IMG/VR virus record: IMGVR_UViG_3300031566_000395
Coordinates: 1-22,617 of that record
DNA from: a virus
Length of the DNA stretch: 22,617 nucleotides
Direction: 5' to 3' (one strand)
Positions 1 to 20,559 of the stretch are shown here, one piece after another (positions within the stretch are counted from its first letter, which is position 1; each line of letters starts with the position of its first letter). A model generated the notes under the pieces. The model searched no databases, was not told the DNA's origin, and saw nothing but the letters and a program-made list of their open reading frames with translations. A program made the position numbers and the translations under genes.

Positions 1-1
1 A

Positions 2-403
2 ATTCTTGATATTGGAACTAGGTTTGGTAACTCTGCTCTTGCACTTTCCAAGAACGGAAGAAATAAAGTTATCAGTTATAATATTATTGAAGAAGGTGCA
101 TCTAATATTGAAAAGAAAAATATTACTTGGATATTGAAAGACTTTCGTGACGATAGTAATATTGAGTGGAATAAAGTAGCCCTCATTCTTCTTGATGTAG
201 ATCCACATGACGGTTCTAAGGAAAGAGAGATGTTAGATTACTTGTCTGAAATTGATTGGTCTGGTAAGATTGTCTTTGATGATATCAACTTAAATGGTGG
301 TATGAAAAATTTCTGGAATTCTCTTCCAGACGAGAAAAAACAAGACCTCTCTGAAGTAGGTCATGTTAGTGGTACTGGTATTATGGAGTTCAATAAAAAA
401 TGA
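2..403 (+). CDS. Methyltransferase-like protein, 5'-truncated by window edge
   Basis: The frame is open from the left edge and ends in TGA at 401-403, so the gene starts outside the window. The first visible residues read ILDIGTRFGNSALALS, which resembles motif I (the glycine-rich S-adenosylmethionine loop) of class I methyltransferases. A later DVDPHDG and an IVFDD strand also fit a Rossmann-type fold. No first methionine is visible; an in-frame TTG at 134 lies in mid-domain and is an unlikely start. The stop overlaps the ATG of the GT11 gene (ATGA), so translation is probably coupled and the protein may modify a sugar or the product of the same glycan pathway. The methyltransferase call rests on fold-like motifs; the substrate is unknown. 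Confidence 0.6.
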   Translation: MLDIGTRFGNSALALSKNGRNKVISYNIIEEGASNIEKKNITWILKDFRDDSNIEWNKVALILLDVDPHDGSKEREMLDYLSEIDWSGKIVFDDINLNGGMKNFWNSLPDEKKQDLSEVGHVSGTGIMEFNKK

Positions 404-1191
404 TTGGTTTTAATCACCTTGGTATTATTGGAAGACTGGGTAACCAGATGTTCCAATATGCAACACTCCGTGGTATTGCGAATACTCACGGTTATGAGTT
501 CACTATTCCTGAAAGTGACTTTAATGATGAGTGGAATGACCATCAACTTTTTGATGCATTTAACCTTCCATATCTAAAGAGTAAAGGAAGAGTTTCTGAT
601 AAGTTTCTACAAGAAAGACAGTTTAACTACGATTCTGAACTGGTTGAACAGTGTCCTGATGATATTAGTCTTTATGGATACTTTCAGACAGAGAGATACT
701 TCTCACACATTGCAGACTCTATCAAAGAGGACTTCACATTCAAGAAAGATGTAGTCACAAACTGTAAAGAAGTTATGGAGGAACTCTCAGAACCCATTGC
801 ACTTCATGTCCGTAGGACTGACTATGTGGAGAAGTCACAAGACCATCCACCTTGTAGTCTAGAGTATTATCATACAGCACTAAAACGTTTCAATGAAAAG
901 AGACCTGTTGTTATCTTTACTGATGATGTGCAGTGGTGCAAAGACCAGGACATCTTTTCACCTGATCGTTTCCTTATCTCAGAGACAGGAAACAATGTGT
1001 ATGATTTGTGCCTTATGACTCTATGTACTGATTATATCATTGCAAATTCTTCATTCTCTTGGTGGGGTGCATGGTTGAGTCAGAATCCTGATCCAAAAGT
1101 TATTGCTCCTAAGACTTGGTTTGGTTCTACTGGTTATACCGCAAAAAATAATACTGTAGATATTGTTCCTAAGCGTTGGACTAAAATTTGA
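400..1191 (+). CDS. Glycosyltransferase family 11 (fucosyltransferase-like)
   Basis: The 263-residue protein carries GRLGNQMFQYA at residues 11-21, HVRRTD at 136-141 and SSFSWWGAW near 217-225. These are hallmarks of family GT11, which includes bacterial alpha-1,2-fucosyltransferases; HxRRxD is the GDP-fucose-binding motif. Length is near the family norm of about 280-300. No signal peptide or membrane span is seen, so it should act in the cytoplasm. The start ATG overlaps the upstream stop, and its own TGA shares a base with the next ATG (TGATG), placing it in a coupled glycosyltransferase operon. It may decorate host lipopolysaccharide or a virion glycan. Family assignment is strong; donor and acceptor are inferred. 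Confidence 0.85.
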   Translation: MIGFNHLGIIGRLGNQMFQYATLRGIANTHGYEFTIPESDFNDEWNDHQLFDAFNLPYLKSKGRVSDKFLQERQFNYDSELVEQCPDDISLYGYFQTERYFSHIADSIKEDFTFKKDVVTNCKEVMEELSEPIALHVRRTDYVEKSQDHPPCSLEYYHTALKRFNEKRPVVIFTDDVQWCKDQDIFSPDRFLISETGNNVYDLCLMTLCTDYIIANSSFSWWGAWLSQNPDPKVIAPKTWFGSTGYTAKNNTVDIVPKRWTKI

Positions 1192-1946
1192 TGTCTAAAC
1201 TTTCTATTGCTATTCCAACCTATGAGATGAATGGTCAAGGTGCTACATATCTCAAAGAGTTGTTTGAGACTATTAAGTTCCAAACATTTCAAGATATTGA
1301 AGTTTGTGTATCTGACCACTCACAGGATGATAGTATCCTGGATGTTTGTGGTGAGTATGCAAACTATTTTACTGTTCAATACTATAAGAATGAAGAGAAG
1401 AGAGGTAATGGTCCGGCCAATACTAACTCTGCTGTAGAGATGTGCAGTGGAGAAATCACTAAGATTATCTTTCAGGATGACTTACTTATTAGTTCTACCG
1501 CACTTCAAAGAATTGTAGAGACTTATGAGGAACAAAACTGTAAGTGGTGTTTCAATGGGTTCTTACACACCAATAATGGTAGAGAACACTTCCGACCAAT
1601 GATTCCTAAATGGACACCGGAAATGTTAGAAGGTCGTAATCTTCTTGGTAGTCCTTCTGGCGTTTCTTTTCTTACTAAAAAGTTTCTACCATTCGATGAA
1701 GAATTAGTATTACTTATGGATACTGATTTCTATCACCGAATGAGGTATGATCATGGTATGCCATATATTATTGAAGAACATCTAACATCAAATAGAGAAC
1801 ATGATAATCGTATCAGTTCTTCGACTGTTAAATATAATGCTAGGGTAGAACACCCAGAAGGTCCTTGGTTAGTTAATGCCGAAGAACTTAATTATGTCAT
1901 TGACAAACATTTAGAAACAAGAAAGTATCCAGATGAAGAAGTTTGA
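1191..1946 (+). CDS. Glycosyltransferase family 2
   Basis: This 251-residue protein begins MSKLSIAIPTYEMN, the typical nucleotide-binding first strand of GT-A family 2 enzymes. It has FQDD near residues 94-97 as the likely metal-binding DxD equivalent and a C-terminal acceptor region. The ATG at 1191 is preferred over a TTG three bases upstream because it overlaps the previous stop as TGATG. The gene overlaps the next glycosyltransferase by 14 bases. It probably transfers an activated sugar in the same pathway as its neighbours. The sugar and acceptor cannot be read from the sequence. Confidence 0.82.
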   Translation: MSKLSIAIPTYEMNGQGATYLKELFETIKFQTFQDIEVCVSDHSQDDSILDVCGEYANYFTVQYYKNEEKRGNGPANTNSAVEMCSGEITKIIFQDDLLISSTALQRIVETYEEQNCKWCFNGFLHTNNGREHFRPMIPKWTPEMLEGRNLLGSPSGVSFLTKKFLPFDEELVLLMDTDFYHRMRYDHGMPYIIEEHLTSNREHDNRISSSTVKYNARVEHPEGPWLVNAEELNYVIDKHLETRKYPDEEV

Positions 1947-2760
1947 TTTAACAAGGGCGACCTTTATCATCCCAATCAGAATAGAATCTGATGACAGATT
2001 GAGGAATGTAATTACCTCAGTCTGTTTTTTGTTGTCTAATTTTGATACTAATATAATTATCAAAGAGGTTGATAAGACCTCTGTGTTTCATGAGAAGGCA
2101 CTCCCACAGATCAAAGATTTTTGTGGAGACATTGGTGACCTAACTCATGTGTTTGAACAGTCAGACTCACCTTCTTTTCATAGACAGAAGGTTCTGAATG
2201 ATATGATTATGATGTCCACCACACAAGTGGTTGTGAATTATGATTGTGATATTATCCTTCCTATTGCTTCCTACATGCAAGCGTATGATAGGATTGTAAC
2301 TGGAACATCTGATGTTGTTTATCCCTATGGTAGTGGTAACTTCCAACTTCAAGTATTTGGAGATGACCAAGTTGTTACTAACTTTCTTGTGAATGAGTTT
2401 GACTTCTCTGCATTCAAAGATGTATTAAAAGTCTATGATGCAAAGTATGGATTTGTTCAGTTCTTCAATAGAGGTGTCTATATTGAAGGTGGATTAGAGA
2501 ATGAAAACTTTGTTGCATATGCCCCAGAGGATGTTGAAAGACATTATAGATACACTACACTGGGATACAGTGTTTCTAGAATCAATGATGTAATCTATCA
2601 CTTAGAACATTCTAGGTCTCCAAACTCATGGTTTAATAACCCGTTCATGCATTCAAATAATGTTGAATGGGAAAAGATTCAGAGGATGGACAAAGAAACT
2701 CTAAAGGAATATATCACTAGTCAAGATTATTATAAGGTGAGAATTGATGGACAAAAATAA
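1933..2760 (+). CDS. Glycosyltransferase, GT2/galactosyltransferase-like
   Basis: The 275-residue protein starts with a GT-A-like strand (ATFIIPIRIESDDRLRN). It has a DCD metal motif at residues 104-106 after VVNY, and a C-terminal GLENENF...PEDVERHYR segment that resembles the acceptor-side domain of polypeptide and beta-1,4-galactosyltransferases, where the acidic residues contact the acceptor. It overlaps both neighbours by about 14 bases and belongs to the same translation-coupled operon. It is less canonical than the GT2 gene before it, so the exact family is left open. It likely adds a further sugar to the same glycan. Confidence 0.72.
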   Translation: MKKFDLTRATFIIPIRIESDDRLRNVITSVCFLLSNFDTNIIIKEVDKTSVFHEKALPQIKDFCGDIGDLTHVFEQSDSPSFHRQKVLNDMIMMSTTQVVVNYDCDIILPIASYMQAYDRIVTGTSDVVYPYGSGNFQLQVFGDDQVVTNFLVNEFDFSAFKDVLKVYDAKYGFVQFFNRGVYIEGGLENENFVAYAPEDVERHYRYTTLGYSVSRINDVIYHLEHSRSPNSWFNNPFMHSNNVEWEKIQRMDKETLKEYITSQDYYKVRIDGQK

Positions 2761-3535
2761 GGCAGTATTCAAACTCAAAAATATTGGCCCAATCTATTGT
2801 ATCAATCTCGATGATCAACCTGAAAGATGGGAGTACATGGAGAACCAGTTCAAGTACTGGGAGATTGAAAACTACACTAGAGTCTCTGCGTATGATGGTA
2901 GAGAGGATGACCTAAGTGAGATACTCAAGGGTCGTTATCCAGACATGATGAGTTCTGGTGAGATTGGTTGTACTACATCTCACTTGAAAGCAATCAAACA
3001 ATTTTATGATTCAGGTGAACCCTATGCAATCATGATGGAAGATGATTGTGATCTTGATCTGGTAAGGTTCTGGAACTTTACTTGGCAAGACTTCTATGCC
3101 AAGATTCCTTATGACTGGGATGTATGTCAGATTGCAATTATCTGTACAGGAGATATTCATATCAAAGTTCATAAGAGGTTTGTGAATGAGTTCTCTACTG
3201 CATGTTATTTGATCACACGTCACCATGCAGAGAAATTAATTCGTCTTCATTGTAGAGGTGACAAGTACAAACTGGACAATGGTGTCAGACCACGTCCAGT
3301 TGCTGATGACCTGGTGTATAACTCAGGTAACACCTACGCCCTTCCACTCCTTCTGTATAAGACGGAACTGGGTTCAAGTATTCATCCTGACCATGTTGAT
3401 GCATTCCACAAAGGAAATTATCAAGCTCAGATGAATTTCTGGAGTCAGAAGGGAGCACAGATGTCCATCAACGAACTGATGGAGTTTGATCCTTACCTGG
3501 GTCGGGTATCTGATCCAACACAACAAAAGGGTTGA
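2747..3535 (+). CDS. Glycosyltransferase family 25 (LPS-type)
   Basis: The protein has 262 residues from the ATG at 2747; a TTG three bases upstream is less likely. It reads IYCINLDDQPERWEYM near the start, then RVSAYDGRE, GEIGCTTSHLKAI and MMEDDCD (E98-D99-D100). This order is the signature of GT25, whose bacterial members add galactose or glucose to lipopolysaccharide. It is the last gene of the glycosyltransferase run. Its stop TGA lies inside the -35 box of the next promoter (TTGACA at 3532-3537), so the operon ends without a separate spacer. Family call is firm; the linkage made is not known. Confidence 0.87.
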   Translation: MDKNKAVFKLKNIGPIYCINLDDQPERWEYMENQFKYWEIENYTRVSAYDGREDDLSEILKGRYPDMMSSGEIGCTTSHLKAIKQFYDSGEPYAIMMEDDCDLDLVRFWNFTWQDFYAKIPYDWDVCQIAIICTGDIHIKVHKRFVNEFSTACYLITRHHAEKLIRLHCRGDKYKLDNGVRPRPVADDLVYNSGNTYALPLLLYKTELGSSIHPDHVDAFHKGNYQAQMNFWSQKGAQMSINELMEFDPYLGRVSDPTQQKG

Positions 3536-3567
3536 CAAGATCACACTCTTATGGTATATTATAAATA
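3532..3567 (+). promoter_or_regulatory. Dual early (sigma70) and late (T4-type) promoter
   Basis: TTGACA at 3532-3537 is followed by a 17-base spacer and TATATT at 3555-3560, a near-consensus sigma70 promoter. TATAAATA at 3560-3567 matches the T4-type late promoter and shares its first base with the -10 box. The two together suggest transcription both early and late. The -35 overlaps the stop codon of the preceding glycosyltransferase. Confidence 0.8.
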
Positions 3568-3570
3568 TAC

Positions 3571-3692
3571 TGGTGTTAAGGGTTATCTTAACACTAAGTA
3601 ATAAAACCGATCTCCGCAAACTTGAGCAAGGTTTTGTATGATAAAATCAGAGACAAGTCGAGTCTCTTAACATCCGTAGGTTAATCTCTACG
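3571..3692 (+). promoter_or_regulatory. Structured 5' leader with several hairpins
   Basis: The leader of about 140 bases before the exported-protein gene holds consecutive inverted repeats. GTGTTAAG at 3573-3580 pairs with 3587-3594 around a 6-base loop. AAAACC at 3603-3608 can pair with GGTTTT at 3630-3635. AGAGAC at 3649-3654 pairs with 3662-3667, and CGTAG at 3675-3679 pairs with 3688-3692. No known riboswitch class was recognised. The structures may stabilise the mRNA or control translation. Confidence 0.5.
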
Positions 3693-3713
3693 AGAAAAAA
3701 AGGTAAAACAAAA

Positions 3714-4085
3714 ATGTTCAAATCTGTATTCGCAGCAACTGCTGCTCTGTCCATGTCCGCTGGTGCCGCCCTTGCAGGTCCCTACGTCAATGTAGAAGCT
3801 AATTCTGGTTGGACTGGTTCTGATTACGGTGGTACCGCAACCGATCTTCACGTTGGCTACGAAGGTAGTATTAGTGAGTCCACTTCTTACTACGTCCAAG
3901 GTGGTGCAACTATCGTCAGTCCTGATGGTGCTGAAAGTGACACTGTTCCTTCTGGTAAGGCAGGTCTCGGTCTTGCACTGACTGATGCTCTCGGTGCATA
4001 TGGCGAAGTCTCCTTCGTCGGTTCTGGCGATAGTGACATTGACCGTGGTTACGGCACCAAGTTGGGCCTGAAGTACAGCTTCTGA
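3714..4085 (+). CDS. Exported small beta-barrel-like protein
   Basis: The 123-residue product starts with a textbook signal peptide: K3, a hydrophobic core and ALA before G22 (cut expected after A21). The mature part is Gly, Ser and Thr rich with alternating aromatic and small residues. It ends in a GTKLGLKYSF strand with a C-terminal Phe, the usual signature of an outer-membrane beta-barrel strand recognised by the BAM machinery. About 100 mature residues would give only a small barrel or an assembly of subunits. An AAAAAAAGG tract about 10 bases before the ATG is the probable ribosome site. The gene stands alone between a strong dual promoter and a terminator and is richer in G and C than its neighbours, which suggests high expression. 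A role in changing the host outer membrane, for example blocking superinfection, is inference. Confidence 0.72.
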   Translation: MFKSVFAATAALSMSAGAALAGPYVNVEANSGWTGSDYGGTATDLHVGYEGSISESTSYYVQGGATIVSPDGAESDTVPSGKAGLGLALTDALGAYGEVSFVGSGDSDIDRGYGTKLGLKYSF

Positions 4086-4094
4086 TATTCAATA

Positions 4095-4123
4095 TAGACA
4101 CATAAACATCTAGATGTTATACT
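4095..4123 (+). promoter_or_regulatory. Sigma70-type promoter just upstream of a terminator hairpin
   Basis: TAGACA at 4095-4100, a 17-base spacer and TATACT at 4118-4123 form a good promoter. The spacer contains the palindrome AACATCTAGATGTT (4105-4118). Transcription should start near 4130, inside the left arm of the terminator at 4125-4149, so this promoter's own transcript would not form that hairpin. Confidence 0.6.
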
Positions 4124-4124
4124 A

Positions 4125-4149
4125 GGGATGCGACGGCATCCCTTTTTTT
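4125..4149 (+). terminator. Intrinsic terminator abutting the next start codon
   Basis: GGGATGC at 4125-4131 pairs with GCATCCC at 4136-4142 around a 4-base loop, followed by seven T. The ATG of the next gene follows directly at 4150. It would end transcription of the exported-protein gene. Confidence 0.85.
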
Positions 4150-4365
4150 ATGGAATATACTCCACCAACTCTTTGTATCAGAAGTATTACTCCCTCTGAT
4201 ACTACAGGTAAAGTACTTATAGATATGCCATCTATATGGAGAGATAGCGATACTATAAACACTCTAGAGATTGACGAAACAATAGTTGAATTTATTATGA
4301 GTGAACCTTTCGTTGTACCTATGTGTCCCCCTGGATGGCCAAATCCCCCTACTGATGTAGAATGA
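4150..4365 (+). CDS. Small hypothetical protein
   Basis: The 71-residue protein has no family I recognise. It is soluble-looking, with a proline-rich C-terminus (MCPPGWPNPPTDVE). The ATG follows a terminator T-tract with no room for a Shine-Dalgarno site, so its mRNA would have a leader of only about 20 bases from the promoter at 4095-4123. Its stop overlaps the next ATG (ATGA), linking it to the small membrane protein downstream. Confidence 0.65.
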   Translation: MEYTPPTLCIRSITPSDTTGKVLIDMPSIWRDSDTINTLEIDETIVEFIMSEPFVVPMCPPGWPNPPTDVE

Positions 4366-4550
4366 AAAAATATTTACTAACCGTAGTTACAAATCCTGCA
4401 GCTCAAGTATCAGTCTCCTTGTTAGGGATACTGATATTGATAAGTGCATTACACAATCATGCTCACTATGAGATGAGTAATGATCCTGATGGATATGTGT
4501 ATCAATGGTATAAGAAAAACCCTGAGAGATGTAAGTACACTCCCAAGTAA
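4362..4550 (+). CDS. Small single-span membrane protein
   Basis: The 62-residue protein has one hydrophobic segment at about residues 14-30 (QVSVSLLGILILISAL), then a polar tail with WYKKNPERCKYTPK. It is coupled to the upstream gene by a 4-base overlap. No homologous family is recognised. A strong promoter for hli follows after its stop. Confidence 0.65.
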   Translation: MKKYLLTVVTNPAAQVSVSLLGILILISALHNHAHYEMSNDPDGYVYQWYKKNPERCKYTPK

Positions 4551-4561
4551 CTTCACAAAAC

Positions 4562-4590
4562 TTGACAAATATTTAACATTACTATATAAT
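4562..4590 (+). promoter_or_regulatory. Consensus sigma70 promoter of hli
   Basis: TTGACA at 4562-4567 and TATAAT at 4585-4590 are separated by exactly 17 bases, a perfect consensus. It would drive the hli and ferredoxin block early using unmodified host RNA polymerase. Confidence 0.88.
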
Positions 4591-4616
4591 TATGTAATAG
4601 TTCTTTACATAAGACA

Positions 4617-4835
4617 ATGACAGTCACAACTAATGATCGTGGACAACAGAACATGTGGGCACAAGAACCCCGTATGTACGTGGATCCAATTGCTGCAGAA
4701 CGTTACGGTTATGAAAGTTATGCAGAACGTGCAGAAAAAATGAATGGTCGTTTTGCCATGATGGGTTTCGTTGCCGGTCTTATCTCTTATGCAACAACTG
4801 GGAGTCTCTTCTTCTTCGGTGCCTTTGGTATCTGA
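4617..4835 (+). CDS. hli: High-light-inducible protein (Hli)
   Basis: The 72-residue protein has the one-helix chlorophyll a/b-binding signature: AERAEKMNGRFAMMGFVAG at residues 37-55, in which the Glu, Asn-Gly-Arg and Met positions match the ExxNGRxAMxGF motif. A hydrophobic span to the end (GLISYATTG, FFFGAFGI) follows. Hli proteins bind chlorophyll in the thylakoid membrane and dissipate excess energy, protecting photosystem II. Cyanophages commonly carry them next to psbA or ferredoxin genes, as here. It has its own consensus promoter. A second, shorter Hli lies at 5410-5517. Confidence 0.93.
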   Translation: MTVTTNDRGQQNMWAQEPRMYVDPIAAERYGYESYAERAEKMNGRFAMMGFVAGLISYATTGSLFFFGAFGI

Positions 4836-4882
4836 TAAGTGATGATTTCACAACACATGAATGTAAAAAGGAGTACTTGACA

Positions 4883-4969
4883 ATGACACAATTTTTCTTT
4901 ACTATAACTAGTGTAGCCTTCTTTGTTTTGTTGGCTTACTCAGTAGAAAAATTATCAGAGACTTACTAA
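4883..4969 (+). CDS. 28-residue single-span membrane peptide
   Basis: A short frame encodes [20 protein letters not shown] followed by VEKLSETY. Residues 3-19 form one transmembrane helix with a short charged tail. A strong Shine-Dalgarno site (AAAGGAG at 4867-4873) lies 9 bases before the ATG, one of the best in the window. The stop shares a base with the ferredoxin ATG (TAATG). Size and layout recall small subunits of photosystem II or cytochrome b6f, but I cannot match it to a named one. Its place between hli and ferredoxin suggests a thylakoid role; that is inference. Confidence 0.68.
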
Positions 4970-5262
4970 TGACATTCAGTGTTACTCTTCGATCTTCGGA
5001 CGGATCTGAACAAACTATCGAATGTGATAGTGATCAGTATATTCTAGATGTTGCCGAGGAACAAGGTATCGATCTTCCATATTCTTGTCGAGCAGGTGCA
5101 TGTTCATCTTGTTGTGGCAAGCTTGTAAGTGGTACAGTTGATCAAAGTGATCAATCATTCTTGGATGATGATCAAATTGAAGAAGGATTTGCACTTCTAT
5201 GCGTCTCATATCCTACCTCAGACTGTGTAGTCGAGACTGAAAAAGAAGAAGATCTCTTTTGA
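4969..5262 (+). CDS. petF: Plant-type [2Fe-2S] ferredoxin
   Basis: The 97-residue protein matches photosynthetic ferredoxins in length and motif. Cys40, Cys45 and Cys48 (CRAGACSSC) plus Cys78 (LLCVSYP) ligate the cluster, and the acidic C-terminus (EKEEDLF) fits docking to reductases. It accepts electrons from photosystem I and passes them to NADP reductase or other ferredoxin-dependent enzymes. In infected cells phage ferredoxin has been proposed to supply reducing power for phage metabolism, including bilin synthesis. It is coupled to the 28-residue membrane peptide upstream and followed after two bases by another small gene. Confidence 0.95.
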
Positions 5263-5264
5263 TT

Positions 5265-5435
5265 ATGTCGAATCACAATGCTCTCTATGAAGATATGGAG
5301 AGACTAAATGCCCTTTATGAAGAGCTCTGTTGGGCACATGATGATGAACTAATATTCACACATGAAAATGGCAGAGTCGTTATCTACAACAATACACAGG
5401 AGAAAACAAATGAACGAAAGAGCAGAACGTATTAA
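5265..5435 (+). CDS. Small acidic hypothetical protein
   Basis: A frame of 56 codons starts at ATG 5265, three bases after the ferredoxin stop, and reads MSNHNALYEDMERLNALYEE at its N-terminus. The first half looks helical, with a repeated NALYE/LYEEL pattern. The C-terminus overlaps the mini-hli gene by 26 bases. No family is recognised; the tight packing and protein-like composition support a real gene. Confidence 0.6.
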   Translation: MSNHNALYEDMERLNALYEELCWAHDDELIFTHENGRVVIYNNTQEKTNERKSRTY

Positions 5436-5517
5436 TGGTTGGGCAGCAATGCTGGGTATCATCGCAGCCATCGGTGCATACGCGACCACTGGTCAGCTGA
5501 TTCCAGGTATTTTTTGA
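5410..5517 (+). CDS. hli: Minimal high-light-inducible protein (35 residues)
   Basis: This short frame encodes MNERAERINGWAAMLG followed by IIAAIGAYATTGQLIPGIF. ERAERINGWAAMLG is the Hli chlorophyll-binding motif (E, N-G, AM-G), and the rest completes one membrane helix, so the protein is reduced to the bare pigment-binding helix. Cyanobacterial Hli proteins are usually 40-70 residues. CAGGAG at 5398-5403 is a Shine-Dalgarno site about 6 bases before the ATG. The stop overlaps the ATG of the next membrane protein (TGATG). It sits 3' of ferredoxin and is probably co-transcribed with it. Confidence 0.85.
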   Translation: MNERAERINGWAAMLGIIAAIGAYATTGQLIPGIF

Positions 5518-5651
5518 TGTTAATTTTAGGTTCTATTCTTCTAGGAACCTTCATCTTCTACTCTGTCTTCTTTACTGATGACATTGACGATGATGGGCCC
5601 CCAGATGATGGTATGATGCAACCAGTATACCAAGGTGTAGGGTCTCATTAG
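5517..5651 (+). CDS. Small membrane protein with acidic tail
   Basis: The 44-residue protein starts at ATG 5517, which overlaps the mini-hli stop. Residues 2-20 form a membrane helix (LILGSILLGTFIFYSVFF), followed by TDDIDDDGPPDDGMM, a strongly acidic segment. A longer frame from an upstream TTG would run through the mini-hli gene and is rejected. Position suggests a role alongside Hli at the thylakoid, but no function is known. Confidence 0.7.
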   Translation: MLILGSILLGTFIFYSVFFTDDIDDDGPPDDGMMQPVYQGVGSH

Positions 5652-5662
5652 AGTCCCTTTTT

Positions 5663-5670
5663 AATAAATA
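5663..5670 (+). promoter_or_regulatory. Probable T4-type late promoter
   Basis: AATAAATA within TTAATAAATAAATTAAC is a one-mismatch variant of the late motif TATAAATA. It lies 22 bases before the ATG at 5692, in the only sizeable gap of this region, and could start late transcription of the small-membrane-protein run. Confidence 0.45.
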
Positions 5671-5691
5671 AATTAACACCGCTTTCATCAA

Positions 5692-6117
5692 ATGCCAGAG
5701 GAAGTTACCAAGAAAGAAGAACCCCAAAAGAAGGGTATTCTGGGAAAAATAAAAGAGGCAACTGATGACAAAGAAGAACAGATTGCTATTTTGTCTACTT
5801 TTGTTAGGCTTGGCATCCTTGTTTGGAGTGGCGGAATACTCACACTCGCTTATATTAAACTACCCCCTGCACTGGGAATCCCCGAACAGAAACTAGATCC
5901 TACTTTTATCGCAAGTGTCTTTACTGGGGTGCTTGCGACTTTTGGCGTTCAGGCGGCAAAGAAAAATGGAGAAGCTTCCAAGTCAGGTGGTGATAATGGA
6001 GTTACCAAAAAAGATATGGAAAGATTAATTGAGACAGCATCACAAACTGCTCCTTCACAAACAATTAGAATTGAACAGGCACCTGTTGTAATATCTGCGG
6101 TAGAACCTAAAGGTTAA
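5692..6117 (+). CDS. Two-span membrane protein, possibly holin-like
   Basis: The 141-residue protein has a charged N-terminus (KKEEPQKKG), two hydrophobic segments at about residues 38-58 (LGILVWSGGILTLAYI) and 72-88 (FIASVFTGVLATFGVQ), and a polar tail of about 50 residues. Two helices with a charged C-terminal domain and a late-type promoter fit the topology of some phage holins, but nothing in the sequence proves this. Structural or other membrane roles are equally possible. Its stop overlaps the next ATG (TAATG). Confidence 0.6.
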   Translation: MPEEVTKKEEPQKKGILGKIKEATDDKEEQIAILSTFVRLGILVWSGGILTLAYIKLPPALGIPEQKLDPTFIASVFTGVLATFGVQAAKKNGEASKSGGDNGVTKKDMERLIETASQTAPSQTIRIEQAPVVISAVEPKG

Positions 6118-6311
6118 TGTGTACCATCATTAATTATGGAATTGCTTTCTTTCAAGTAGTAATTTTGAATTGTATACAACCTGTCAATTGGCAGTACTGT
6201 TATCGTGTGGATCAATGGTTAGTCCAGGATCTTCAGTATGCATGGGAATTGAAGATAGGTAAGGTTCATCCCTATCAGACTGAGAAAGAATACCTAGAAA
6301 GTTTTAAGTAA
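6117..6311 (+). CDS. Small hypothetical protein
   Basis: The 64-residue protein begins at the ATG overlapping the upstream stop. The first third is hydrophobic (INYGIAFFQVVILNCI) and the rest is aromatic and polar (NWQYCYRVDQWLVQDLQYAW). No family is recognised. It may be a membrane-anchored protein co-translated with the two-span protein before it. Confidence 0.6.
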   Translation: MCTIINYGIAFFQVVILNCIQPVNWQYCYRVDQWLVQDLQYAWELKIGKVHPYQTEKEYLESFK

Positions 6312-6378
6312 GGATCTCATAACAAACCACCATTCCTAAGGAACACCACTATAATAGATAATGTAGTTGATAATCAAC

Positions 6379-6510
6379 ATGACTTTATCTCACGTATTAC
6401 TTTGGATATCAATCCCATTTGTAATCACTACAGTACTGTTTGGATTTTACAAAGGGGAGAACGTTTATTATGAATCAGATAAGTACGACGGGAATGGAAC
6501 CGCACATTAG
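6379..6510 (+). CDS. 43-residue single-span membrane protein
   Basis: A frame from ATG 6379 encodes MTLSHVLLWISIPFVITTVL, then FGFYKGENVYYESDKYDGNG and TAH. Residues 4-24 make one membrane helix, followed by a polar tail. A TATAAT-like box at 6350-6355 lies upstream without a clear -35. The gene overlaps the next frame by 41 bases. The translation is protein-like and fits the run of tiny membrane proteins here; no family is recognised. Confidence 0.6.
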   Translation: MTLSHVLLWISIPFVITTVLFGFYKGENVYYESDKYDGNGTAH

Positions 6511-6694
6511 AAGTCGTTATGACTTTGCAATGAGTTCATTCTCCAGAATGTATGGAGTCAAGAATGTACTAAACTCACAAACTATACCAACCTTCTGTAG
6601 AGAGTGGGCTATTGATGATGAAAAAAATATACCAACAGGAACATTAACAACAGTTGATTTCTATTTTAGAGACTTATGGATGAGGGACAATTAA
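6470..6694 (+). CDS. Small soluble hypothetical protein
   Basis: The 74-residue protein starts at ATG 6470, supported by AAAGGGGAG at 6451-6459 about 10 bases upstream; an earlier TTG in frame is rejected. It reads MNQISTTGMEPHIRSRYDFA and ends YFRDLWMRDN. It has no membrane segment, unlike most genes around it. The C-terminal end overlaps the next micro-gene by 19 bases. No family is recognised. Confidence 0.68.
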   Translation: MNQISTTGMEPHIRSRYDFAMSSFSRMYGVKNVLNSQTIPTFCREWAIDDEKNIPTGTLTTVDFYFRDLWMRDN

Positions 6695-6759
6695 TTGTAA
6701 TTAGTTTTTATACTTTCATTGGATTATTTTTATTTGTACTTTCTTTAATTTCAGAATAA
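6676..6759 (+). CDS. 27-residue single-span membrane peptide
   Basis: The frame encodes MDEGQLIVISFYTFIGLFLF and VLSLISE: a short acidic N-terminus and one hydrophobic helix. A GGATGAG context gives little ribosome-site support. The stop overlaps the next ATG (TAATG), and four further genes follow in the same end-to-start fashion, which is the best evidence that it is translated. Confidence 0.5.
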   Translation: MDEGQLIVISFYTFIGLFLFVLSLISE

Positions 6760-6845
6760 TGACACACTATATTACAGCAATGCTAATACTAACTTCAATA
6801 ACATCATTTGTTTTATGGGGTATCAATAACGCGTATCCATCATGA
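6759..6845 (+). CDS. 28-residue single-span membrane peptide
   Basis: ATG 6759 overlaps the upstream stop. The product reads MTHYITAMLILTSITSFVLW and GINNAYPS, with one membrane helix at about residues 4-20. It overlaps the next gene by four bases. No family is recognised. Confidence 0.5.
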   Translation: MTHYITAMLILTSITSFVLWGINNAYPS

Positions 6846-6931
6846 TGAGTGGTCTTTTTGTATTCTTATTTGTCATACTACTGGTTAGTGGTATGGAATT
6901 AACATGGGCAGTTAAACAAGGAAAGAGATGA
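6842..6931 (+). CDS. 29-residue single-span membrane peptide
   Basis: The frame starts ATGATG at 6842 and reads MMSGLFVFLFVILLVSGMEL, then TWAVKQGKR. One strong membrane helix is followed by a basic C-terminus, giving a clear expected orientation by the positive-inside rule. It overlaps both neighbours by four bases. Confidence 0.55.
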   Translation: MMSGLFVFLFVILLVSGMELTWAVKQGKR

Positions 6932-7089
6932 TGTTACAGTTTGCTAGGTTTTGTGGGACTGTACTAAACAACCCATACGGATTAGGATTCCTATCATCTA
7001 TTTTAATTTTGGTTCCCATCGTGGGAATGTGGGCAGTTCATAAATATCAGTGGGAACACTGGGAACCTTTCACGAGGAAACATAAATGA
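6928..7089 (+). CDS. 53-residue single-span membrane protein
   Basis: The frame starts at ATG 6928, overlapping the upstream stop (ATGA). It reads MMLQFARFCGTVLNNPYGLG, then a hydrophobic span at residues 19-36 (LGFLSSILILVPIVGMW) and a Trp/His-rich basic tail (HKYQWEHWEPFTRKHK). The stop overlaps the next ATG. No family is recognised. Confidence 0.6.
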   Translation: MMLQFARFCGTVLNNPYGLGFLSSILILVPIVGMWAVHKYQWEHWEPFTRKHK

Positions 7090-7295
7090 ATCCAGTAATT
7101 TTAATCGGTTGTTTTACGCCACTGGTTTTAATTTTTATAGTAATGAAACTTGCTGTGTGGGTATCTGCTGTTAACGACGAAAAAAACTATGTCGGAAAAG
7201 AACCTTTACGAAAACGGGGACCATTCTTGGACAATGTATATGCAGACGTTGACGAAGAGGAAGAAGAATATGGAGATCGCACAGACTATAGATAA
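7086..7295 (+). CDS. Small membrane protein with acidic tail
   Basis: The 69-residue protein begins MNPVILIGCFTPLVLIFIVM, one N-terminal membrane helix, and ends in a strongly acidic tail (DVDEEEEEYGDRTDYR). It overlaps the previous stop by four bases. The poly-Glu codons double as a GAGGAAGAAG ribosome-site-like run for the next gene at 7270. Function unknown. Confidence 0.68.
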   Translation: MNPVILIGCFTPLVLIFIVMKLAVWVSAVNDEKNYVGKEPLRKRGPFLDNVYADVDEEEEEYGDRTDYR

Positions 7296-7419
7296 TGCTC
7301 TTTATCAACACTATACAATTGAACAAGGAAAACCTGTACCAAACTGGAGATATATAAAAGATCAAGACTGGTGGTATGAATATCTTAAAAATTTAGGATT
7401 AGATCCAAGAAATCCATGA
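7270..7419 (+). CDS. Small soluble hypothetical protein
   Basis: The 49-residue protein is taken from ATG 7270 (MEIAQTIDNALYQHYTIEQG), with GAGGAAGAAG just upstream. Earlier in-frame starts at 7150 (TTG) or 7189 (ATG) would give long overlaps with the previous gene and lysine-rich sequence that looks like an out-of-frame shadow. The rest is Trp- and Tyr-rich (PNWRYIKDQDWWYEYLKNLG). The stop overlaps the next ATG. Confidence 0.62.
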   Translation: MEIAQTIDNALYQHYTIEQGKPVPNWRYIKDQDWWYEYLKNLGLDPRNP

Positions 7420-7625
7420 ACGAAGAAGAGTATTATGATGAGAATTATGACTACACAATAAGTGTAAGAATAGAAGATATAAAGCTCCTACATCACTGTG
7501 TGAAAGAAACCATTAAGTATTGGCCAGGAGCTCCAGCCAGACCTTATGAAGAACAGGAACAGTTATGGGCCCTAAGAGATAACTTATTTAAAATAATACT
7601 TGAGTACCAATTTAATAATTCATGA
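7416..7625 (+). CDS. Small acidic hypothetical protein
   Basis: The 69-residue protein has an acidic Tyr-rich start (MNEEEYYDENYDYT) and a helical remainder containing WPGAPARPYEEQEQLWALRD. It has no membrane span. It is joined to both neighbours by ATGA overlaps. No function can be assigned. Confidence 0.66.
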   Translation: MNEEEYYDENYDYTISVRIEDIKLLHHCVKETIKYWPGAPARPYEEQEQLWALRDNLFKIILEYQFNNS

Positions 7626-7828
7626 ACTTATTACTACATCCACATACTAATGTAAGCGATCCTGTGTGGTCGGTCATTTTTATGGTCTTTCTTTCTCTTT
7701 GTATGGCTGGTTATAGTATCTACTATATACTAGGAGTTGATGAAAGAGAATCTCATGGGAGCAATGACGCCACCGAGCAGGAAGAGCTGCTACAACTTCC
7801 GAGTGACGGAGATCAATCGTGTTCTTGA
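7622..7828 (+). CDS. Small membrane protein overlapping the nuclease gene
   Basis: The 68-residue protein has a membrane helix at about residues 15-37 (DPVWSVIFMVFLSLCMAGYS) and a polar tail. Its last 89 bases overlap the start of the nuclease-like gene in another frame, so one of the two ends may differ from the call. The ATG overlaps the upstream stop (ATGA), which supports this start. No family is recognised. Confidence 0.62.
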   Translation: MNLLLHPHTNVSDPVWSVIFMVFLSLCMAGYSIYYILGVDERESHGSNDATEQEELLQLPSDGDQSCS

Positions 7829-8216
7829 TGGTGATACTATTGATGTTACAATTGATCTTGGTTTCGATCTCTACAAGAAAGAGAGAGTTAGAGTCGCGGG
7901 TGTCGATACACCAGAAAAGAGGACGAAGAATCTAGAGGAGAAGGCACTTGGAATCGACGCAACCAACTGGCTCAAAGAGAAATTGGAAAGTACTATTGCT
8001 GGTGACGATGAGTTGTCTGTTAGGACTGAACTTGTTGGTGGCGTCGGTAAATATGGCCGTCTTCTTGGTTGGTTATACATTGGGGACGAGTCAGTGTCCC
8101 TTAACGAGCAAATGATTGCCGAAGGATATGCGTTACCCTATGCAGGTGGAACAAAAGACATGAACCTGGAATTGTTGAGAGAGATTAGACGTAAGTTTGG
8201 AACTCTAGTAGAATAA
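7740..8216 (+). CDS. Staphylococcal-nuclease-like endonuclease
   Basis: The 158-residue protein has the thermonuclease signature. LDGDT places Asp32 as the calcium ligand, and RVAGVDTPE supplies Arg51, Asp56 and Glu59 with the same spacing as Arg35, Asp40 and Glu43 of staphylococcal nuclease. YGR at residues 105-107 supplies the second arginine. All catalytic positions are present, so it should cleave DNA or RNA in a calcium-dependent way. There is no signal peptide, so it acts inside the cell, perhaps in host DNA breakdown or nucleotide recycling. The start may be ATG 7740 or a later ATG (7755, 7764); conserved sequence begins only near residue 19. Confidence 0.88.
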   Translation: MKENLMGAMTPPSRKSCYNFRVTEINRVLDGDTIDVTIDLGFDLYKKERVRVAGVDTPEKRTKNLEEKALGIDATNWLKEKLESTIAGDDELSVRTELVGGVGKYGRLLGWLYIGDESVSLNEQMIAEGYALPYAGGTKDMNLELLREIRRKFGTLVE

Positions 8217-8219
8217 TAT

Positions 8220-8381
8220 ATGAAATTCAATTTAGATATGGAGGACTATACGATCCTCATTAACGCACTTCATTATTATAAGAAGGTTGAGAAGAAAGGA
8301 AACTTTCAACAGTATGACGAGAAAAGAATAAACTCTCTCCGTGATAAGATGGCCAAACAGATAACTAATCTTTATACATAG
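8220..8381 (+). CDS. 53-residue hypothetical protein
   Basis: The frame from ATG 8220 encodes MKFNLDMEDYTILINALHYY and a lysine-rich helical tail ending NLYT. It follows the nuclease stop by three bases. It has no membrane span or known motif; the helical, charged pattern suggests a small DNA- or protein-binding factor, which is only a guess. Confidence 0.62.
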   Translation: MKFNLDMEDYTILINALHYYKKVEKKGNFQQYDEKRINSLRDKMAKQITNLYT

Positions 8382-8394
8382 AAAAGAACTTTGA

Positions 8395-8679
8395 ATGAAT
8401 AAGATGCAAAAAATTGTAAACGGTCTTGCTATTTTCTCTAGTCTTATTTCCTTAACCGTCGTTGGTGCTGGTGGTTATGTCTATCTTGAAAAGGACAATA
8501 TTATTGAAGGTGTCAAATCTCAAGTTGCTGGTGCAGCAGCAGAAGCAATTTCTGGAGCACTTCCTGGAATGATGGATTCTGCAATGCCAGAACTTCCTGG
8601 TGCTACTGGTGGTGCGATTCCTTCTACTCCTGGTACAAGTGGTGGTATCGGTGGTGGGACACCAGGTCTTCCATTCTAA
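8395..8679 (+). CDS. Membrane-anchored Gly/Pro-rich protein
   Basis: The 94-residue protein has an N-terminal hydrophobic segment at residues 9-31 (GLAIFSSLISLTVVGAGGYV). An Ala-rich helix follows (GAAAEAISGALPGMMD), then a low-complexity Gly, Pro, Ser and Thr tail ending GGTPGLPF. The first segment lacks a clear signal-peptidase site, so it is more likely a membrane anchor. It lies just before a larger virion-type gene and is probably co-transcribed with it. Function unknown. Confidence 0.68.
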   Translation: MNKMQKIVNGLAIFSSLISLTVVGAGGYVYLEKDNIIEGVKSQVAGAAAEAISGALPGMMDSAMPELPGATGGAIPSTPGTSGGIGGGTPGLPF

Positions 8680-8685
8680 AATTAA

Positions 8686-9471
8686 ATGAATATCCCTCGT
8701 ATTGGTGCTAATCAAATTAGAATCGACAGAGTTGATATTCTACCAGTTAGAAGTATACTAAATGATGTACCTCCGATTCAAAACCTTGATCCCCCAGTCA
8801 CTATTCAGATAGGTAATCCTATCATTGACATGCCTGGGTGTGTTGAGGCGCACGAAAGTAATAACCCACTGAATGAGAATAGTAACGATGCAAGAGGAAT
8901 CGTTACTTATTGTGATGGAAATATTCCTAGTTTTAATCCACCGGACTACAGCGGTTTGGAAGAATTAGAAACACCAACTCAAGAGGTTGATACTAGGTTT
9001 GAGGAACCAAAGGAATCAAATACAAATACGGATGGGAAAGATAATTTACCACCACCTTCACTAGAATGTCCTACAGCTGTTCAGAAAGCACAAGAACCTG
9101 TAGGGACATATGTCAATGGATATAGAGAACAGGTAACTGAATATAAGTTGATCGATGGTGTCTGTGTTCAGATTACAGAGACTGTAGGTATCCCGGAACA
9201 AGTCTTGGCTGGTCTTCCTAGTGGTGGTCAAGTAATGCAGGTTGGTGGTATTGCAGTGATTGCAACTACATCTGCACTATTAGCAAAACCGTTGGCGGAC
9301 ATACTATTGAAAGTAGTCAAACCAACGGTTAAGAAAGTTACAAAGAAGATTGCCGCTATTCGGGGGAAACAACTGAAGACCTTGTCTGTAAAGGAGCGCC
9401 AAGCAGAGCAGCGGGATCGGAATCAAACGATTGCAAAGTTGAAGTCTGTGAAGGCGAAGACGAAGAAGTAG
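8686..9471 (+). CDS. Probable virion-associated protein
   Basis: The 261-residue protein has a Pro- and Asn-rich N-terminal half, a central GTYVNGYREQVTEYKLIDG segment and a hydrophobic stretch (VGGIAVIATTSALLAKPLA) at about 190-207. The C-terminus is very basic (KKVTKKIAAIRGKQ...KAKTKK). No enzyme motif is seen. Size, composition and position next to other probable structural genes suggest a virion or assembly protein; this is inference. The last 116 bases overlap, on the opposite strand, the end of the convergent gene at 9356-10174. Confidence 0.65.
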   Translation: MNIPRIGANQIRIDRVDILPVRSILNDVPPIQNLDPPVTIQIGNPIIDMPGCVEAHESNNPLNENSNDARGIVTYCDGNIPSFNPPDYSGLEELETPTQEVDTRFEEPKESNTNTDGKDNLPPPSLECPTAVQKAQEPVGTYVNGYREQVTEYKLIDGVCVQITETVGIPEQVLAGLPSGGQVMQVGGIAVIATTSALLAKPLADILLKVVKPTVKKVTKKIAAIRGKQLKTLSVKERQAEQRDRNQTIAKLKSVKAKTKK

Positions 9472-10174
9472 GTCTAGGGATAGAATGACGATGTTGTGGA
9501 ACAACAGTAACATTCTGAACCACTACATCAGCACAGATTTTATAGTAAGGACTTCTGGGATGAAAACTAATTCCAGATTTCATTAACTCACCGCAGTTCT
9601 TGAGTCTTGCAATCTCAAAGTCCAGTCTCTTATTAGCTGTGATTTGTTGTTGCAATTCAATTTGAGTTTGTGCTGCCAACTTACATTGATCTTGAAGAGT
9701 CTTGTCTAGAGGACGAGACCAAGTAACAGAAAATCCAAGACCTAAATTGTAATTATCTTTCTGTCCAGTTCTTACAGGGATTTCATATACAACACGTCCT
9801 GGATTATCTGGGATGCCATCACCAATGCCATTACCATCCTCATCAAAACGACCTGTGAAATCAGTCACATCGTATACAGGGTCATTGTAGTATGGTTCCC
9901 AAGGTAATGACCTGGAGACTGCTCCAGTAACGTATGGTGTAACATTCATTGTGGGACCTTGACACTGAATACCTCCCCCGTAGGTGTTTGTAATATAAGG
10001 TCCCTGGAGGACTTGGATGGCTTGGTTGGTAACTGAACCAGAACTATTAGCAACAGGGGCAGCACTAGCACTGACACCCCCAACAGAATTTGCAAGAACC
10101 TTTGTAGGGGATAATAAACCAATTCCAAGCGATGCAAGTATTACTAGATTAACTCTCTTCTTCAAAAATTTCAT
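9356..10174 (-). CDS. Exported protein with coiled segment, cyanophage type
   Basis: Taken from the ATG at 10174, the 272-residue protein begins MKFLKKRVNLVILASLGIGL with a signal peptide and a likely cut after VLANS or VLA. An alternative ATG at 10207 would add 11 polar residues in front of it. After a Ser/Val-rich linker come YDVTDFTGRFDEDGNGIGDG, which looks like a calcium-loop pattern (DEDGNGIGD), and a helical Gln-rich stretch (QTQIELQQQITANKR) that could coil. The tail is Ser/Pro rich. It is the last of three reverse-strand genes that all have signal peptides. No Shine-Dalgarno site is evident. Exported envelope protein or virion component are both possible. Confidence 0.68.
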   Translation of the reverse strand: MKFLKKRVNLVILASLGIGLLSPTKVLANSVGGVSASAAPVANSSGSVTNQAIQVLQGPYITNTYGGGIQCQGPTMNVTPYVTGAVSRSLPWEPYYNDPVYDVTDFTGRFDEDGNGIGDGIPDNPGRVVYEIPVRTGQKDNYNLGLGFSVTWSRPLDKTLQDQCKLAAQTQIELQQQITANKRLDFEIARLKNCGELMKSGISFHPRSPYYKICADVVVQNVTVVPQHRHSIPRPTSSSSPSQTSTLQSFDSDPAALLGAPLQTRSSVVSPE

Positions 10175-10304
10175 ATTATAATAACTATTGTGTTCAAATA
10201 AGTTCATAGTAGTTATAATCTTCAGTCAATGAAAGTCATAGACTTATCTGGTAGTATATATGGTCCTTTTACTGTATTATGAAAAGATGAAGCGTTAGAA
10301 AAAG

Positions 10305-10733
10305 TTACTGGCTAAAAATGGAAGTCGTATCAGTTACTGACTCTATCAACGTTTCTCTTTGAATAATTGTTTGGTTTTGAAGACCAGGCCCGCTGTATGT
10401 TTCTGTAAACTGAAAGGCCGCACCAGGATTTGTTTGTGTGAAACTCGGCCTGTTTGATAATCCTACCCATCGTGAAGTCACTCCTTCTATATTATTAGGG
10501 GTTGTTTGAGTTCCAGGACTCAATTCCCCTGATGCTGTAATTCCACTGCCAGTCACTGAAAATTGATATCCAGTACTGTAGTCCATCGAATTGATGGTTT
10601 CTGTAATCTGTTGTGTAGTCTCTGTATGACTTGTCATACTGCCCTGGCTGAAGTTTGGGACTACTGGTACACCATATGCTGGTTGAAGTGACCCTAGTAC
10701 CAAACTCAACAATCCGATTTGGATTATTTTCAT
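10305..10733 (-). CDS. Exported Ser/Thr-rich protein
   Basis: The 142-residue protein begins MKIIQIGLLSLVLGSLQPAY, a signal peptide with cleavage expected after AYG. The mature part is rich in Thr, Ser, Gln and Gly (TTQQITETINS, FSVTGSGITASGELSPGTQT), typical of beta-rich fibrous or surface proteins. Its ATG overlaps the stop of the upstream reverse gene (TGATG on that strand), so the two are co-translated and share the SGSGI motif, suggesting related folds. Function unknown. Confidence 0.72.
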   Translation of the reverse strand: MKIIQIGLLSLVLGSLQPAYGVPVVPNFSQGSMTSHTETTQQITETINSMDYSTGYQFSVTGSGITASGELSPGTQTTPNNIEGVTSRWVGLSNRPSFTQTNPGAAFQFTETYSGPGLQNQTIIQRETLIESVTDTTSIFSQ

Positions 10734-11227
10734 CAGTCGATGACAGTGATCTCGGACACAAATTGTCCTGTTGCCGTAGTACCAGCGCCACCGGCTGTTA
10801 CTGTGAGAGCACCTGTAGTCGCTACAGTACCAGCCAAAGATCCAGCAACACCAGCAGTGTAAGAAGTTACATTACTGAAGTTGGGGATCTGACCGACAGT
10901 AGCAGCACTACTTGGGATTGCATCACCCTGTGTGAAAGATGTGCTATATGTGAAAGCATTTCCATCAGTTGCCTGAGTTGCTGCGATAGTTCCAGGAGAA
11001 TAGATGCCACTAGTAATACTGCCAGCAGAAATAGTTCCTGCTGTGGTGCCATCAGTAGTATTGATACCACTACCTGAAATACTATAAGAATTACCAACTC
11101 TTGTGGCAGTTGATCTAGCAGCTTCAACAGTCAGTTGAATGCTAGAACTCTGACTACTAACAAGCCCTCCAGCATTTGCAACACTGGCTGTCATCATTAA
11201 CATAATAAAAGGTAAGAACCTTTTCAT
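10733..11227 (-). CDS. Exported Gly/Ser/Thr-rich protein
   Basis: The 164-residue protein begins MKRFLPFIMLMMTASVANAG, a clear signal peptide with cleavage after ANA. The mature part is built of short Gly, Ser, Thr and Ala repeats (TTDGTTAGTISAGSITSGIY, GVAGSLAGTVATTGALTVTA), suggesting a beta-solenoid or adhesin-like fold. It contains the SISGSGI motif that recurs as SVTGSGI in the following gene. It is first in the reverse-strand operon and has a late-promoter-like site at 11254-11261 upstream. Confidence 0.74.
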   Translation of the reverse strand: MKRFLPFIMLMMTASVANAGGLVSSQSSSIQLTVEAARSTATRVGNSYSISGSGINTTDGTTAGTISAGSITSGIYSPGTIAATQATDGNAFTYSTSFTQGDAIPSSAATVGQIPNFSNVTSYTAGVAGSLAGTVATTGALTVTAGGAGTTATGQFVSEITVID

Positions 11228-11253
11228 TTGTTATCGAACTCATACACTGTTTT

Positions 11254-11261
11254 TATTTATC
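11254..11261 (-). promoter_or_regulatory. Probable late promoter, reverse strand
   Basis: Read on the reverse strand this is GATAAATA, one mismatch from TATAAATA, 27 bases before the start of the 11227 gene. It sits back to back with a forward late promoter at 11273-11280. Confidence 0.55.
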
Positions 11262-11272
11262 TAAAGGCGATC

Positions 11273-11280
11273 TATAAATA
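11273..11280 (+). promoter_or_regulatory. T4-type late promoter
   Basis: A perfect TATAAATA lies 33 bases before the ATG of the zinc-ribbon gene at 11314, in an 86-base divergent gap. Confidence 0.65.
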
Positions 11281-11313
11281 TACTTACTGTATAGGAATGA
11301 ACAGTTTACTATA

Positions 11314-11571
11314 ATGTCCGATAAAGAGCTATCTGACCTGTCATTTAACAGGGAAGAATGCCCCAAGTGTGGTGCAGTATGGTTAAATGGTAATCATATA
11401 TGGAGGACAGGCAACAAAGGTAATGAAGAAACTCTTCATAACTTAGTCTGCTCAAGAACAAATAATCCTCAATGTATTAACAAAAAATACAAAAAAGGAT
11501 TTGTCTATGAAAAAGCAGACTCCTGGGAAAAGAGATCTAAATTTATTGAAAAGTGGAATCCTAATGAGTAA
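11314..11571 (+). CDS. Small zinc-ribbon-like protein
   Basis: The 85-residue protein has CPKCGAVW (Cys16, Cys19) and a second pair, Cys46 and Cys54 (VCSRTNNPQC), consistent with one zinc site. The rest is basic and aromatic. Such small zinc proteins often bind nucleic acid or proteins, but no specific family is recognised. It starts the forward side of the divergent pair and overlaps the next gene by eight bases. Confidence 0.72.
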   Translation: MSDKELSDLSFNREECPKCGAVWLNGNHIWRTGNKGNEETLHNLVCSRTNNPQCINKKYKKGFVYEKADSWEKRSKFIEKWNPNE

Positions 11572-11725
11572 AAATCAAGTGAAGAAAGAAGAACTTAAAG
11601 TAAAAGTTCTAAAACTTAAAGACGAAGTATATAACGAACCAAAAACAGTTTGGCAAAAAGAAAAAGATCTAGCCCATAAGTATCTTAATAAGGTGTTAGA
11701 TATTCTAGAAGAATATAGATACTAG
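11564..11725 (+). CDS. 53-residue charged helical protein
   Basis: From ATG 11564 the product is MSKNQVKKEELKVKVLKLKD followed by more charged helix ending LDILEEYRY; a longer frame from 11501 would lie inside the zinc-ribbon gene. Leu and Ile fall at regular spacing, so a helix or coiled coil is likely. It overlaps the upstream gene by eight bases. Function unknown. Confidence 0.62.
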   Translation: MSKNQVKKEELKVKVLKLKDEVYNEPKTVWQKEKDLAHKYLNKVLDILEEYRY

Positions 11726-11730
11726 TTCTT

Positions 11731-11874
11731 ATGAACCCGGACAAGCCTAATCCTACAGGGATTGAGCCAGTCTGTCAAGTGGCTCTAGAAAAAGGGTTGA
11801 CAGACTATCAAAACTCTGTTACTATAAATAAGTCGAGAGGTTACGGAACCAACACATTCCTTAATCATTTGTAA
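11731..11874 (+). CDS. Possible small protein overlapping the psbA promoter
   Basis: A 47-codon frame starts at ATG 11731 (MNPDKPNPTGIEPVCQVALE), five bases after the upstream stop. Its first 20 residues look protein-like, but the last 25 codons run through the psbA promoter (11797-11830). No ribosome site is seen. It may be a real small gene or a chance frame. Confidence 0.3.
   Translation: MNPDKPNPTGIEPVCQVALEKGLTDYQNSVTINKSRGYGTNTFLNHL
11797..11830 (+). promoter_or_regulatory. psbA promoter, early and late
   Basis: TTGACA at 11797-11802, a 17-base spacer and TACTAT at 11820-11825 form a sigma70-type promoter. TATAAATA at 11823-11830, overlapping the -10 by three bases, is a perfect late motif. 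The -35 lies in the right arm of a 10-base inverted repeat (AGTCTGTCAA at 11769-11778, TTGACAGACT at 11797-11806). Confidence 0.75.
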
Positions 11875-11972
11875 CACCCCTTCAACCAAGACCTATAGGG
11901 TGTATAAACACGTCTTTCATATCTCTATCTTAGGGTGATAGAGAAATAGTAACTCCACCATTCCCTGATGGT
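11874..11972 (+). promoter_or_regulatory. psbA leader hairpins
   Basis: Three inverted repeats follow each other in the roughly 160-base psbA leader. ACACCC at 11874-11879 pairs with GGGTGT at 11898-11903. TCTCTATC at 11922-11929 pairs with GATAGAGA at 11937-11944 around a 7-base loop. ACCAT at 11957-11961 pairs with ATGGT at 11968-11972. There is no Shine-Dalgarno site before the ATG, so leader structure may affect stability or translation. Confidence 0.5.
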
Positions 11973-11993
11973 CTTACTTTTTTGTTCAAAACA

Positions 11994-15437: not shown

Positions 15438-15469
15438 ACCACCACTCCTGATTCAGGGGTGGTTTTTTT
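15438..15469 (+). terminator. Intrinsic terminator in repeat copy 1
   Basis: ACCACC pairs with GGTGGT; inside, CCTG at 15447-15450 pairs with CAGG at 15454-15457. Seven T follow (15463-15469). Confidence 0.85.
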
Positions 15470-15476
15470 ATAAATA
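15469..15476 (+). promoter_or_regulatory. T4-type late promoter in repeat copy 1
   Basis: A perfect TATAAATA starts on the last T of the terminator tract, 21 bases before the HNH ATG at 15497. Confidence 0.65.
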
Positions 15477-17199: not shown

Positions 17200-17230
17200 A
17201 CCACCACTCCTTGACACGGGGTGGTTTTTT
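17200..17230 (+). terminator. Intrinsic terminator in repeat copy 3
   Basis: ACCACC at 17200-17205 pairs with GGTGGT at 17220-17225, with further C-G pairing inside, followed by six T. Confidence 0.82.
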
Positions 17231-17240
17231 ATTGTATAGT
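17211..17240 (+). promoter_or_regulatory. Sigma70 promoter of the purine operon
   Basis: TTGACA at 17211-17216 and TATAGT at 17235-17240 are 18 bases apart. The -35 lies in the terminator loop. It should start the transcript covering purS, purC and purM early in infection. Confidence 0.82.
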
Positions 17241-20558: not shown

Positions 20559-20559
20559 T

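Follow-up and report, generated by a model that had tools for sequence, protein, structure and literature searches.

The window analysed here, the whole stretch of 22,617 nt at positions 1 to 22,617 of IMG/VR virus record IMGVR_UViG_3300031566_000395, carries ORFs annotated as D1/psbA-like, high-light-inducible, ferredoxin and transaldolase-like, and judged from its sequence its source is a marine T4-like cyanophage. The present study concerns a cassette at 4095–4150, described here together with its flanking genes, all on the plus strand. Upstream lies a 123-aa gene (3714–4085) assigned to phrog_417 and Pfam Phage_OMP (PF24653, cyanophage outer membrane protein-like beta barrel), to which a strong sigma70-type promoter detected by promoter scan at 3532–3560 (TTGACA-17-TATATT, with TG before the -10 box) probably belongs. 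The gene is followed by a -35 box TAGACA (4095–4100; TTTACA, TAAACA or TTGACA in relatives), a 17-nt spacer and a -10 box TATACT (4118–4123). Next comes a terminator stem-loop, comprising a left arm AGGGATGC (4124–4131, from sequence and folding), a loop GACG (4132–4135, from folding) and a right arm GCATCCCT (4136–4143, from folding and paired changes), and a tract of seven T (4143–4149). The T-tract touches the start codon of the first gene after the cassette, a 71-aa phrog_3997 gene (4150–4365) with its ATG at 4150 and without a Shine-Dalgarno site. A second gene of 62 aa (phrog_2587, 4362–4550), of a kind that directly follows the cassette in most relatives, precedes the next promoter (TTGACA-17-TATAAT, 4562–4590, a 12/12 match), which stands before the high-light-inducible gene. 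The cassette promoter spacer also contains a 14-bp perfect palindrome, AACATCTAGATGTT (4105–4118, unstranded), whose last base is also the first of the -10 box and which is conserved in most cassettes.

The hairpin at 4124–4143 consists of 8 bp with a folding energy of -14.1 kcal/mol (z -5.2), a stability equalled in 0 of 200 shuffles, and is the clearest terminator-like site within positions 1–12000. With its U-tract, the segment 4124–4149 has the features of an intrinsic terminator, namely a GC-rich hairpin above chance expectation, paired changes in relatives and a run of U. The original prediction had described a promoter TAGACA-17-TATACT, a T7 tract touching the ATG and the lack of a Shine-Dalgarno site, all of which are as read at 4095–4150. 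Its hairpin GGGATGC/GCATCCC is likewise present; its placement of the -10 box one base before the hairpin needs correction, because A4124–T4143 adds an eighth pair and the -10 box directly abuts the stem. The promoter itself has a score of 10/12; its -10 box is preceded by TG, and its -35 box is one position off consensus. Promoter-like matches are frequent in the AT-rich DNA of the window (50 in 12 kb versus 36.5 expected), and because single hits are common by chance the match in the window proves little alone, so that comparative evidence is needed. The same frequency would suit a reading in which the Phage_OMP gene simply ends at an ordinary intrinsic terminator, with promoter-like boxes that are vestigial or due to chance, and in which expression of the downstream genes starts elsewhere. 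Also in its favour, the Phage_OMP gene of S-SKS1 (L399) and of about 25 contigs ends with the palindrome AACATCTAGATGTT abutting a promoterless terminator that has no -10 box.

Since a blastn search of named phages with the 67-nt cassette gave no match, the comparison was based on viral contigs, from which cassettes were gathered by a scan for the Phage_OMP (PF24653) gene and by pattern scans. A total of 126 complete, distinct cassettes retain the -35 box, spacer, -10 box and stem. Within the -10 box, A2 and T6 are kept in 126/126 while positions 3–5 vary (TATACT, TATGAT, TATAAT, TATATT, TAGAAT and others), and all but one cassette match the consensus at five or more of six positions. The -35 box also varies (TAGACA, TTTACA, TTGACA), though 117 of the 126 match at five or more of six positions; 114 have a 17-nt spacer, the -35 variants standing at a spacing of 16–17 nt. 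The gap between -10 box and stem ranges from -1 to +1 across the 126 cassettes. In the stem, 13 distinct arm versions, transcribed manually from the cassettes found, give 99% paired cells, and three pairs are changed on both sides. Of the 125 cassette loci with a downstream ORF, 115 have the start codon immediately or 1 nt after the T-tract. Mostly, a phrog_2587-like gene follows the cassette directly, whereas a phrog_3997-like gene comes first in about 26 cases including the window; two further arrangements are singletons. Relatives that lack the cassette of the window after the Phage_OMP gene often have an unrelated cassette of the same design, at least as regards the -10 box (L041, L060, L066, L069 and L070). 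Conservation of the boxes through function-preserving changes in 126 cassettes speaks against their being accidental or vestigial.

A second, unrelated copy of this arrangement is present in the window itself (20529–20589, plus strand), where TTGACA-18-TATAGT is followed by a 3-nt gap, the hairpin GGGAGTTCAAAGCCTCCC, a T7 tract and an ATG at 20587. To place both copies among other terminators, a non-redundant set, mostly cyanophage, was compiled from the fetched viral contigs together with the genomes of nine cultured marine cyanomyoviruses. Strict cases were defined as sigma70-type promoters scoring at least 10/12 with a -10 box ending 0–4 nt before the first G-C pair. With the cassette family left out, 26 of 391 non-redundant terminators were strict cases, compared with 0.4 expected from flanking positions, and at most three were found in any of 200 dinucleotide shuffles. 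Gaps of 0–2 nt between -10 box and stem predominate in marine cyanophages, and strong -10 boxes are rare elsewhere upstream. The start codon was touched by 27 of 32 overlap terminators (score at least 9) versus 39 of 359 others (P 8e-19), so that the ATG touching the T-tract, pointed out in the original prediction, is part of the same recurrent pattern. Genes downstream of the overlap terminators at this score belong to 15 families; given this diversity and the start-codon contact, the terminators cannot be accounted for by common descent from a single locus. As an arrangement of sequence elements, the architecture thus extends beyond the cassette family of the window. The excess of 26 over 0.4 and the associated start codons weigh further against an ordinary terminator with fortuitous boxes, a reading that we regard as very unlikely.

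Many of the contigs had been fetched via the cassette, the palindrome or the neighbouring Phage_OMP gene, and overlap frequencies in contigs are therefore not unbiased; some of those fetched via the palindrome may not be cyanophage. In the cultured genomes alone the association with start codons persists (10/20 versus 20/175, P 1e-4), and eight cases at a score of at least 10 were found among 197 terminators, most of the nine genomes having come from the same similarity search. This first class of overlap was at or near background in RB49, phi1, T4, KVP40, the freshwater phage S-CRM01, the podovirus Syn5 and 0.8 Mb of the host WH7803, and at the strict score these comparison genomes contained almost none (one in KVP40).

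Transcription from sigma70 promoters normally starts about 7 nt after the -10 box. Based on this spacing, the cassette promoter is predicted to start near G4130 (4128–4133), at the end of the left arm. RNA folded from 4130 retains -1.9 kcal/mol, compared with -14.1 kcal/mol for the full hairpin; from 4128, 5 nt after the -10 box, four pairs remain (-3.0 kcal/mol), a modelled residual hairpin that is probably too weak to terminate, though not nil. Over 35 members of the class, a start 7 nt after the -10 box shifts the median hairpin energy from -12.0 to -0.1 kcal/mol, with the hairpin abolished or nearly so in 35/35 when folded from the predicted start, and the base at this position is a purine in 29 of the 35. 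As the -10 boxes stand 0–2 nt before the stem, a start 6 to 8 nt after them falls in the left arm. This placement fits the pattern expected if the terminator stops transcripts of neighbours and spares those of its own promoter. The earlier proposal that the promoter is positioned so that its own transcript lacks the left arm is accordingly in agreement with both the -10 position statistics and the folding from the predicted start.

Attenuators, too, classically place a terminator immediately ahead of a start codon. In that case transcription would begin upstream of the stem, and the choice between termination and read-through into the gene at 4150 would fall to a factor of the phage or host. 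Promoters placed for such a role are rare: at a score of at least 10, only three stood at gaps of 5–14 nt versus 36 at gaps of 0–4 nt. The leader is moreover too short for an alternative antiterminator fold and the cassette has no match in Rfam, and we consider attenuation highly improbable.

We instead favour, with a probability of roughly 0.8, a composite terminator-promoter-start-codon module of marine cyanomyoviruses, in which a start inside the left arm lets the transcript escape the terminator. RNA polymerase arriving from the Phage_OMP gene would transcribe both arms and the U-tract and then be released. Polymerase recruited at 4095–4123 would start near G4130, and because this lies at the end of the left arm its RNA could not form the hairpin; it would pass the U-tract and continue into the gene that begins at 4150, its leader being about 20 nt long and lacking a Shine-Dalgarno site. 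The upstream unit would thereby be insulated from the downstream unit, a single short stretch doubling as the 3' end of one unit and the promoter and leader of the next. In any RNA that does read through, a stable hairpin would stand immediately ahead of the AUG, likely a second brake acting on translation. The mechanism of a promoter that starts inside its terminator is well supported, with a start site and termination that we infer. The recurrent family, the second copy at 20529–20589, the spacer palindrome and a resemblance to known phage motifs called promoter-early stem-loops (PeSLs) were absent from the original prediction.

The surroundings of the cassette bear traces of gene exchange. 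Contig L002 matches the window at 95% identity as far as 4152, where the similarity breaks, and homology returns at 4560, at the next promoter; these otherwise near-identical regions differ in gene content exactly over the interval from the cassette to that promoter (L002 1493–2279 versus window 4150–4562). One gene swap thus appears to end at the cassette ATG, which fits what is expected of a shuffling joint. Rare hybrid cassettes (L113, L160 and L305) combine the left half of one version with the right half of the other, meeting at the palindrome as if recombined there. Changes to the palindrome in relatives are mirrored in some cases (TATCTAGATA, ATCATCTAGATGAT) and one-sided in others (AACATCTAGGTGTT). 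A search for ATCTAGATGTTATA with one mismatch allowed found no occurrence in the first 11 cultured phage records, the exact palindrome was absent from four further cultured phage records, and no copy within one mismatch was present in the host WH7803. The palindrome may act as an operator, or it may be no more than a joint for recombination.

The break in homology at the ATG, the hybrids and the differing genes that follow the cassette would all suit a site that is mainly a PeSL-like recombination joint, its DNA being kept since homologous exchange there brings new genes and transcription control being secondary. A mere homology tract would not be expected to change its -10 box, -35 box and stem in ways that preserve function, nor to recur in non-homologous copies, and we give this reading very low odds. 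Within the composite module that we prefer, a conserved cassette beside exchangeable genes would still probably act as a site where modules are exchanged, a role that has been proposed for T4-type PeSLs.

PeSLs are reportedly found in RB49, phi1 and other T4-type phages, as treated by Arbiol et al. 2010 and Comeau et al. 2014. The cassette resembles them in joining a sigma70-type promoter, inferred from its type to be early, to a stem-loop terminator between genes. Like PeSLs it may also mark boundaries of exchanged modules, a role that one clear breakpoint pair and the hybrid cassettes would fit. PeSLs of T4-type phages are described as motifs that combine a promoter with a stem-loop and are linked to the shuffling of genes (PMC4503421, PMC3950731), and they are also treated in PMC5348500. 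In RB49 and phi1 a complete promoter stands 25–60 nt after the stem (about 40 nt) in 14/42 and 12/40 terminators, respectively. The stem-loop there comes first and the promoter after, whereas the -10 box in the window abuts the stem from upstream, overlapping the terminator; the cassette is further set apart by a predicted start within the stem and by a T-tract that runs directly up to the start codon. Because order and overlap differ, we count the cassette as a PeSL-like variant and not as a member.

A related logic is known from T4, where long transcripts of the gene e, soc, 49 and I-TevI leaders form a hairpin that is escaped through a promoter at its 5' strand, late transcripts of gene e lacking the 5' strand of the inhibitory hairpin (PMC3014915). 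RNA initiated at the cassette promoter is similarly predicted to lack the 5' strand, but the T4 hairpin blocks ribosomes and is paired with late promoters, whereas that of the cassette is predicted to end transcription and is paired with a sigma70-type promoter. The transposase genes of IS10 and IS50 are shielded from outside transcription by an inhibitory hairpin that arises in read-through RNA but cannot arise in RNA begun at their own promoter, a protection that differs from the cassette in acting on the ribosome binding site and in belonging to transposons. A literature search on overlapping promoters and terminators, conducted mostly among papers outside subscription, returned nothing of this kind beyond PeSLs. 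The cassette would move the truncation logic of the T4 lysozyme type from translation to termination, and would allow compact phage genomes to set independent transcription units back to back, about 55 bp ending one unit, starting the next and forming its leader. The predicted start sites can be tested in the cultured phages Syn9, S-PM2, S-SKS1 and ACG-2014d. Automatic annotation of terminators and promoters in cyanophages would change, and the design offers a very short insulator for synthetic circuits.

Two sister geometries of promoter-terminator overlap were also identified. In the second class the terminator lies inside the promoter, the -35 box being in the loop or right arm and the -10 box beginning 8–13 nt after the stem; 40 cases were counted among marine cyanophage terminators versus 2.2 expected, and none in RB49, phi1, T4, KVP40, S-CRM01, Syn5 or 0.8 Mb of WH7803. 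An example in the window (17203–17240) has a -35 box TTGACA in the hairpin loop, the T-tract as spacer and a -10 box TATAGT just after it. In the third class the terminator ends in a T-tract that leads directly into a T4-type late promoter TATAAATA, as at 15441–15476 of the window; 22 cases were found in cyanophages versus 1.4 expected, and the class is also present in RB49/T4. Together, the three classes of promoter overlap account for 115 of 401 non-redundant terminators (~29%). It seems rather probable that promoter-terminator overlap is a standard building block of marine cyanomyoviruses, occurring in three geometries, each letting a gene's own transcripts escape the terminator that stops those of its neighbour. 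A short TGTCACA-like motif was also often observed directly before second-class hairpins in cultured cyanophages, for example in S-SKS1 (L398) and S-CAM9 (L373).
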